Positions 31,377 to 38,292 of a stretch of 40,117 nucleotides of DNA are shown here, piece after piece (positions within the stretch are counted from its first letter, which is position 1; every line of letters starts with the position of its first letter). The notes below the pieces were generated by a model that was given only the letters and a program-made list of their open reading frames with translations, was not told where the DNA came from and made no database searches. This stretch comes from Candidatus Gastranaerophilales bacterium (GTDB lineage Bacteria; Cyanobacteriota; Vampirovibrionia; Gastranaerophilales; UBA9971), in assembly GCA_028278305.1 (NCBI GenBank), contig JANQEP010000008.1:1-40117 (forward strand), read 5' to 3'. The translations under genes were made by a program, and so were the position numbers.

Positions 31377-31658
31377 ATGTCTCGTTCACTAAAAAAAGGA
31401 CCATTTGTAGAAGAATCATTGATGAAAAAAATTGAGAAGATGAATGAATCAGGCGGTAAAAAAGTAGTAAAAACCTGGTCAAGAGCGTCAATGATTGTTC
31501 CTGACATGCTAAATCATACAATAGCAGTGCATAATGGAAAAACACATGTCCCTATTTATATAACAGAACAAATGATAGGACACAGGTTAGGCGAGTTTGC
31601 TCCGACACGTATGTTTCGTGGTCATGCAGGCTCTGATAAGAAGGCTAAAAGAGGTTAA
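31377..31658 (+). CDS. rpsS: 30S ribosomal protein S19
   Basis: 93 aa; [57 protein letters not shown]. Confidence 0.98.
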
Positions 31659-31663
31659 GTAAG

Positions 31664-31990
31664 ATGATGCAGGTAAATCAATCCGGGCAATCAGGCATTT
31701 CATTCGGCAGAGAAACTATTGAACAGCTTGTAGTTAAAGATAGCTTTAACGGAATAACACAAATTCCTTTTAAGCCAGGTATAGTTATCAACCCGGTTGG
31801 AGATGACAAATGTACAATTACAACACCTCCTTTTAAAATTGATAAATTACAAAAAGAAGAGGTATATGCTCAAGGTAGCAATAATTTTCTTATTGTTTAC
31901 CCAAATACAGATTCACAACTTCAAGGACCGCTTAGAAATGGACAATCCGTAAAAGTTAATGATGAAGGTAAATTTGAAGTAATCGCTTAA
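31664..31990 (+). CDS. Hypothetical protein embedded in the S10 operon between rpsS and rplV
   Basis: 108 aa ORF, no family recognised; tight spacing to rpsS and rplV; no signal peptide or TM. Confidence 0.75.
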   Translation: MMQVNQSGQSGISFGRETIEQLVVKDSFNGITQIPFKPGIVINPVGDDKCTITTPPFKIDKLQKEEVYAQGSNNFLIVYPNTDSQLQGPLRNGQSVKVNDEGKFEVIA

Positions 31991-32020: not shown

Positions 32021-32779
32021 ATGGAAGCAAAGTCAAAACAATCGAATATAAGAATGCCCGCAAGAAAGGTAAGAAGAGTCATTAACACAATCCGGGGAAA
32101 AAGTGTTAAAGACGCAAGCACCATGCTGAAATTCATGCCATATTTTGCGGCAAAAGTGGTGGAAAAAAACCTTAAATGCGCGGTTGCTAACGCATCTGAA
32201 AAACTAGGCGCAATTGAAGAAGAATTAATAGTATCAGAAATTTACGCGGACGACGGTCCGACATATAAAAGAGCAAAACCCCGGGCACAGGGACGTGTTT
32301 ACAGAATACACAAGCGTAACAGCCATCTGACAATAATAGTCAGGGTTTCGGAAGAGCTAAAAGAGAAATTAAAAGAGAAAAAGAAAAAAGCCGGAAAACC
32401 AAAAGCTAAAAAACAGGAAACAAAACCTGTAGAAACAACAGCTCAAGCAGCGGCTGACATTCCTGAAAATGAAGCAAAAACTGAAAAACAGGAAGTTATC
32501 GAACAGGAAGTGGTAATAGAAACCAAAGAAGCCGAAGTCCTGGAAGAGGCAAAACAGGAGCTGGAGCAGGGAATAACTCCCGACATAGAAACCCAGCCGG
32601 AAATTGAGTCACCGGTCGAGAGCGAAGCTGAAAAGGCGGAAACAGGAAAAAATATAAAAGTTGAAGCCGAGCAGCGTGAATCCCACACAGAAACATCCGA
32701 AACAGCTGAAGAAACTGAAAAAACAGAGCCTGAAACAGGTTCAGAAGCGACAGATAATCAGGAAGAAGAAAATAAATAG
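32021..32779 (+). CDS. rplV: 50S ribosomal protein L22 with long acidic C-terminal extension
   Basis: 252 aa; core [26 protein letters not shown]...[20 protein letters not shown], then ~135 aa Glu/Lys/Thr-rich tail. Confidence 0.96.
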
Positions 32780-37677: not shown

Positions 37678-37717
37678 CAAAAAGTAGGGTGCGCACCCTA
37701 CTTTTTGTTGTTTACTC
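37678..37717. repeat. Dispersed palindromic repeat, copy B (also terminator-like)
   Basis: 30-bp perfect palindrome CAAAAAGTAGGGTGCGCACCCTACTTTTTG (37678-37707) followed by TTGTTTACT; right half CTACTTTTTGTTGTTTACT matches copies D and E with one mismatch. Confidence 0.85.
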
Positions 37718-37918
37718 TCTTTCAAATTTTATTTTATAGTTTAAAGCCTTGACTATTATTTCTAATTCATTCAAATTTACAGTGCCTTTTTTTAATTTAG
37801 ACGATAAATTTTGTACACTGTATGGTTTATCTTTTGCTTTAGAAATCTTTTCCGCTAAAAATGTCAATGTTACAGCATTATCCAATGCTAATTTTCTTAT
37901 TTCATTACCTAAACTCAT
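37712..37918 (-). CDS. Small XRE-like HTH protein
   Basis: 68 aa; paralogous to the 38086-38292 ORF; stop codon TAA lies inside repeat copy B. Confidence 0.75.
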   Translation of the reverse strand: MSLGNEIRKLALDNAVTLTFLAEKISKAKDKPYSVQNLSSKLKKGTVNLNELEIIVKALNYKIKFERE

Positions 37919-38039: not shown

Positions 38040-38099
38040 ATGAGTAAAGAGGGAGTTTTCAGATGCGCAACCCGCAGTTTGTCGTTTACTTTTTTATAA
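38040..38099 (+). pseudogene. Start of a small gene apparently interrupted by repeat copy C
   Basis: Strong SD aaggag (38028-38033), ATG at 38040, MSKEGVF then reading frame runs into the repeat (agatgcgcaacccgcagtttgtcgtttact) and stops after 19 codons. Confidence 0.45.
38061..38090. repeat. Dispersed palindromic repeat, copy C (diverged)
   Basis: agatgcgcaacccgcagTTTGTCGTTTACT. Confidence 0.65.
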
Positions 38100-38292
38100 A
38101 TTCAATATTATAATCTAATATTTCTGCTATTAGAAAAGCTTCCTTTAAGGTCAAAGTTTCTCTTCTCAATTTGTGAGAGATACTTTGAAAAGTATATTTT
38201 TCATTAGTTTTTTTTGACAACTTTTCTGCCAGCTTGGTTATAGTCATACCCTCCTGAGCCAGTAGTGATTTTATTTTGTTTCTAATATTCAT
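38086..38292 (-). CDS. Small XRE-like HTH protein
   Basis: 68 aa; MNIRNKIKSLLAQEGMTITKLAEKLSKKTNEKYTFQSISHKLRRETLTLKEAFLIAEILDYNIEFIKK; stop codon inside copy C. Confidence 0.78.
   Translation of the reverse strand: MNIRNKIKSLLAQEGMTITKLAEKLSKKTNEKYTFQSISHKLRRETLTLKEAFLIAEILDYNIEFIKK

Follow-up and report, generated by a model that had tools for sequence, protein, structure and literature searches.

The 108-aa ORF lying between rpsS and rplV in the S10 operon of a Candidatus Gastranaerophilales bacterium is probably a true coding, taxonomically restricted and non-ribosomal accessory gene, with a leader typical of its order and a fast-changing body, a reading which we hold with moderate confidence. 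Analysis was carried out on a stretch of 40,117 nucleotides of contig JANQEP010000008.1 (the window; genome G000) and draws on sequence comparisons covering the coding character, synteny and restricted distribution of the ORF, the conservation of its leader, the divergence of its body and the enrichment of the leader in the order. As proposed, the gene would have come into the rpsS-rplV gap, or arisen there, in a single family of the order and would be read from the S10 polycistronic mRNA via a ribosome-binding site inside the rpsS end. Its product would be one of a class of proteins of the order, small and evolving fast, that have a common leader and unrelated bodies, the class leader consisting of Met, a small N/Q/S-rich stretch and then hydrophobic-[STNG]-F-[GK]. 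The leader would act in docking or targeting; the body would change under relaxed or diversifying selection. The features are presented in Table 1.

Table 1. Features of the rpsS-rplV region of the window.
Feature	Position	Strand	Basis
Orphan ORF, 108 aa, pI 5.0	31664..31990	+	Coding scores; same-slot homologue in G005
rpsS (S19), upstream neighbour	31377..31658	+	Pfam Ribosomal_S19 3.6e-37; last codons AAAAGAGGT
rplV (L22), downstream neighbour, long acidic C-terminal tail	32021..32779	+	Pfam Ribosomal_L22 1.6e-31
Conserved N-terminal leader MMQVNQSGQSGISFG	31664..31708	+	Comparison with G005
Fast-diverging body, probably beta-rich	31709..31987	+	G005 comparison; poor structure models
Gap with rplV ribosome-binding site AAAAAGGAAAATAAAA	31991..32020	+	Conserved with G004, itself without the ORF

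A complete ORF had been quoted at this place in a sequence-only reading, and its coordinates, sequence and spacing (108 aa plus stop, 5 nt from the rpsS end and 30 nt to the rplV start) proved exact, with Pfam confirming both neighbours. A chance ORF was ruled out by Markov trials, codon-position composition and codon scores. Under a first-order Markov model of the 362-nt gap, an open frame of at least 97 aa arose in 0.035% of trials, and in 0.26% when the same model was applied to the corresponding gap of the relative G005. Codon-position composition was gene-like (GC1/2/3 = 0.51/0.32/0.20), and of the six frames only that of the ORF had a positive codon log-likelihood (+0.194, the rest being negative), real genes of 90-250 aa scoring mostly about 0.03-0.24. 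An assembly artefact was also ruled out because G005, an independently assembled MAG, has the same arrangement. Judged on these sequence properties, 31664-31990 is a genuine protein-coding gene. A likely Shine-Dalgarno sequence (AGAGG) lies in the rpsS tail 9 nt 5' of the first ATG and is kept in G005 and in a further relative, G006. No terminator-like site was found near the ORF on the + strand, and its codon usage resembled that of r-proteins only mildly, placing it in the top 11.5% of small genes. We infer co-transcription with the S10 operon, and high expression is plausible from position.

With respect to homology, searches of Pfam, NCBIfam (above cut-off), PHROGs and PADLOC were all negative and PDB chains gave no significant match; no ribosomal-protein family was matched. 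The earlier description of the product as no recognised ribosomal protein was thus borne out, as was its description as not Lys/Arg rich (pI 4.99). Phage or plasmid origin was rejected, with a single weak phage match (E 0.7) and zero plasmid matches. The ORF is single copy, no paralogue being found in its own genome, and among about 240 genomes of the order Gastranaerophilales no homologue was found beyond the same-slot gene of G005. Several weak matches in an order-wide profile search were GGDEF-type proteins and were judged to be chance. The suggestion of a small beta-rich domain gained weak support in that both AlphaFold models were mostly strands, at pLDDT of only 37 and 44; these two models were built from a two-sequence alignment and were too poor for a fold search.

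The distribution of the insertion was restricted, in agreement with the proposal of a lineage-specific gene. G005, a member of the same genus, carries a 106-aa ORF in the identical slot, starting MMQVNQFRQSNTSFG (BLASTP E 2e-5; Z about 8 against shuffles). Besides the two ORFs, a search with an MQVN...FG pattern gave chance matches only. The body alone remained more similar to its G005 counterpart than shuffled sequences were (P 0.0004-0.002), and the whole gene is therefore taken as homologous to the G005 ORF, with a fast-diverging body. G004, also of the same genus, lacks the ORF and has an rpsS-rplV gap of 33 nt. Likewise, the ORF was missing in four further genera of its family (gaps of 3-53 nt), and no insertion was present among 69 further loci of the order, where all gaps were at most 52 nt. 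An apparent 858-nt insertion in L103 (UBA947) was rejected since it reflects a swapped rpsS-rplB order, the arrangement at 1355-2490 being rplW-rpsS-rplB-rplV in place of the usual rplW-rplB-rpsS-rplV. Coding, and with no homologue beyond a narrow clade, the ORF answers in its sequence to a taxonomically restricted orphan gene.

A 97-aa ORF also occupies the rpsS-rplV slot of G006, a member of another genus of the same family. An SFG leader is not clearly present in it, its similarity to the window ORF is not significant, and a relationship between the two was not demonstrable. The G006 slot ORF showed a weak likeness to the flagellar FlgE/F/G D1 domain (PF22692; E 0.043, 14.4 bits against a cut-off of 27) and to FlgF/G-like proteins (phmmer 0.004-0.05), whereas the window ORF had no Pfam match to this domain. 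The G006 slot ORF may descend from a flagellar-rod-like beta domain. Flagellar rod or hook proteins were present in all 10 genomes examined of the window's family, and flagellar genes have been described in a termite-gut member of the order (PMC5877343). The few carriers of the gene are flagellated and related to the gut Melainabacteria. In a tree of L2, S19 and L22, G000, G005 and G004 grouped together, with G006 and G002 as an adjoining pair; a history of one gain with two losses and a history of two gains fit about equally.

The start of the window ORF fits the pattern hydrophobic-[STNG]-F-[GK] ending within 45 residues (MMQVNQSGQSGISFGR). G006 has three extra small ORFs in its r-protein cluster, two of them with a common leader: these two, of 96 and about 102 aa, lie in the spc section of the operon, in the rplE-rpsN and rpsN-rpsH gaps, and have near-identical starts, TPTGQKPYINRNTPGQKARRVGFG and TPTSQKPYINRNTPGQKARRVGFG, ending RVGFG, the remainder being mostly different. 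No further copies of the pair were found in the G006 genome. When about 1.8 Mb of sampled order genome was scanned, similar starts were observed on many small lineage-specific ORFs, including MISGLGLNPAAKMNFG, MVSSVTFG, MINNIGFKG and MINQVGFSMPSYSANKISFK in G000 and MNISPISLNTINKTSSSKKLSFG and MNILPVGNTSFG in G020. A first test of FG-type motifs in 242 G000 ORFs gave no N-terminal excess, the excess emerging only when the motif included a hydrophobic residue in front and only in small proteins. N-terminal [IVLMTA][NSTG]F[GK] was seen in 25 ORFs of 80-160 aa against 8.9 expected (p 8e-6), a count which excludes the ORFs under study and a p value which is optimistic, as the motif was shaped after examples had been seen. 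The excess in G000 alone was 12 against 4.2. A reversed motif gave no excess in ORFs of the same size (9 against 10.6 expected), and there was none for the motif in proteins longer than 400 aa.

Because the motif had been chosen after seeing examples, a DNA pattern for M-N-I-x-P...[ST]FG was tested across 147 order genomes and matched 14 times, its reversed control 3 times. Nine of the 14 were open and in frame, in families f2, f5 and f7. The motif had been shaped with the help of f7 and of one f2 genome, but not of f5 or of the four f2 genomes that matched. The seven distinct in-frame ORFs that were read encode 93-437 aa, and an AGG-type site closely precedes most of them; MNISPVQNNNSQSFG and MNITPVQNNSQSFG come from two related species in which the bodies diverge with indels. 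Among genomes outside the order in a phylum sample, 5 matches were seen beside 7 for the reversed control, and the one match of the 5 that was in frame read RFG. The strict pattern had no match in the window's own family (f1), since f1 leaders start differently (MINxI, MMQVN). Neither such a leader nor such an rpsS-rplV insertion was found described in the literature searched.

As the leader is short, terminal and common to unrelated bodies, a shared docking or targeting element is the most economical explanation and the most likely one. A broader proposal is offered tentatively and is itself doubtful: that Gastranaerophilales mark many lineage-specific proteins, unrelated to one another and quick to evolve, with an undescribed leader, a small N/Q/S/P-rich stretch ending [ST]FG or [SN]FKG, which would serve them all as a signal for targeting or docking. 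The window ORF would be among them, its place in the S10 operon keeping its expression constantly high. The leader could instead direct export, in which case the ORF would encode a protein that this gut bacterium secretes or directs at its host. Its position at the extreme N-terminus and the unrelated, fast-evolving bodies, mostly without a Pfam match, would suit export, as would one leader protein with ankyrin repeats and one with a PARP-like match. Nevertheless, the leader has no hydrophobic stretch such as a Sec signal would have, no secretion system was linked to it in this analysis, and one leader protein carries a Rep domain, of the kind involved in phage or plasmid replication, so that we regard export as rather unlikely. 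The ankyrin-repeat (2.9e-11) and PARP-like (weak, below cut-off) proteins lie at L221 2846-4375 and L222 12040-12963 (G020).

Divergence of the ORF was measured against its neighbours using the pair G000 and G005. While the flanking r-proteins were 88-95% identical (dN 0.03-0.06; dS about 0.6-1.0, range 0.61-0.98), the ORF products were only about 30% identical, with dN 0.62 and dS 1.1, a dN some 15-fold above that of the r-protein neighbours. This comparison covers a single pair, for which NG86 estimates are rough at 32% identity; one clear orthologue (G005) is too few for selection tests. Identity was concentrated in the leader, at 11 of 15 residues against 18 of 85 in the body (Fisher p 1.5e-4, one orthologue pair), and the first 44 nt were 82% identical to G005, with the remainder unmatched in a DNA search. 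Such rapid divergence, with the ORF dN near the dS of its neighbours, and the patchy presence of the gene are also what would be seen of a recent de novo ORF or a decaying remnant, open by chance, read through from the operon and without selected function. We consider this unlikely, given that the frame stays open over its full length in both genomes at about half nucleotide identity, that the leader is preserved and that codon usage is typical for real genes.

The sequence-only reading had also raised a possible ribosome-linked function, and this part was not supported. Location in the S10 cluster, a ribosome-binding site overlapping rpsS and the identical slot in G005 would all be consistent with a lineage-specific ribosome-associated protein or a regulator of S10-operon translation. 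Against this, the product is acidic to neutral and not basic, and the fast divergence, the pI and the absence from G004 together argue against a ribosomal role; the lineage-wide conservation expected of an r-protein was not observed, the gene being missing from G004 and the 69 other order loci. The ORF product is accordingly not supported by its sequence as a ribosomal component. A ribosomal or regulatory RNA role was rejected, as an Rfam search was empty and the RNA fold was not unusual (z -1.0), and the ribosome-linked alternative as a whole appears very unlikely. Equally improbable is that the ORF was carried in by a small mobile or palindromic element inserting into r-protein gaps. Dispersed palindrome-like repeats in other operon gaps of relatives and the two similar ORFs in G006 might suggest this, but it is countered by the lack of terminal inverted repeats and of a hairpin at the ORF, of a second copy in the genome and of any convincing phage or plasmid match.

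Other features of the operon were observed. The window L22 is 252 aa long with an acidic low-complexity C-terminal tail; L22 length was 200-256 aa in G000, G004, G005, G006, G002 and G003, and other members of the family, G001 and G007-G009, have an L22 of 114-115 aa. In the rpsN-rpsH gap of L154 (G005) and in gaps of L162 (G001) and L161 (G008), dispersed palindrome-like repeats (ATCCTGAAACAAGTTCGGGATGACA and similar) lie between r-protein genes. On the window contig the spc operon ends at rplR, without rpsE, rplO or secY, and two similar 68-aa HTH-like ORFs follow just after it on the minus strand (37712-37918 and 38086-38292).

An accessory gene of this kind matters in that rpsS-rplV insertions are exceptional, and within one gut-associated lineage a core operon would have room for a non-ribosomal gene that evolves rapidly. 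Should the leader prove to be a signal for sorting or docking, it would open a way into an uncharacterised protein set of an uncultured order, the members of which are non-photosynthetic relatives of cyanobacteria.

Rickettsial palindromic elements and other REP-like inserts are small insertions in or between genes of conserved operons. Repeats of similar look occur in neighbouring gaps of relatives, but the window ORF differs in not being palindromic, in having no repeat copies and in its full start-to-stop frame. With r-proteins and ribosome-associated small proteins, such as its neighbours S19 and L22, it shares operon, strand and tight spacing, but it is neither basic nor conserved, is absent from a sister species and matches no family. 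Like orphan small genes the window ORF is short, single-copy, confined to a narrow clade and fast-diverging, and it differs from them in lying within a highly conserved operon and in bearing a leader common to unrelated proteins of the order.
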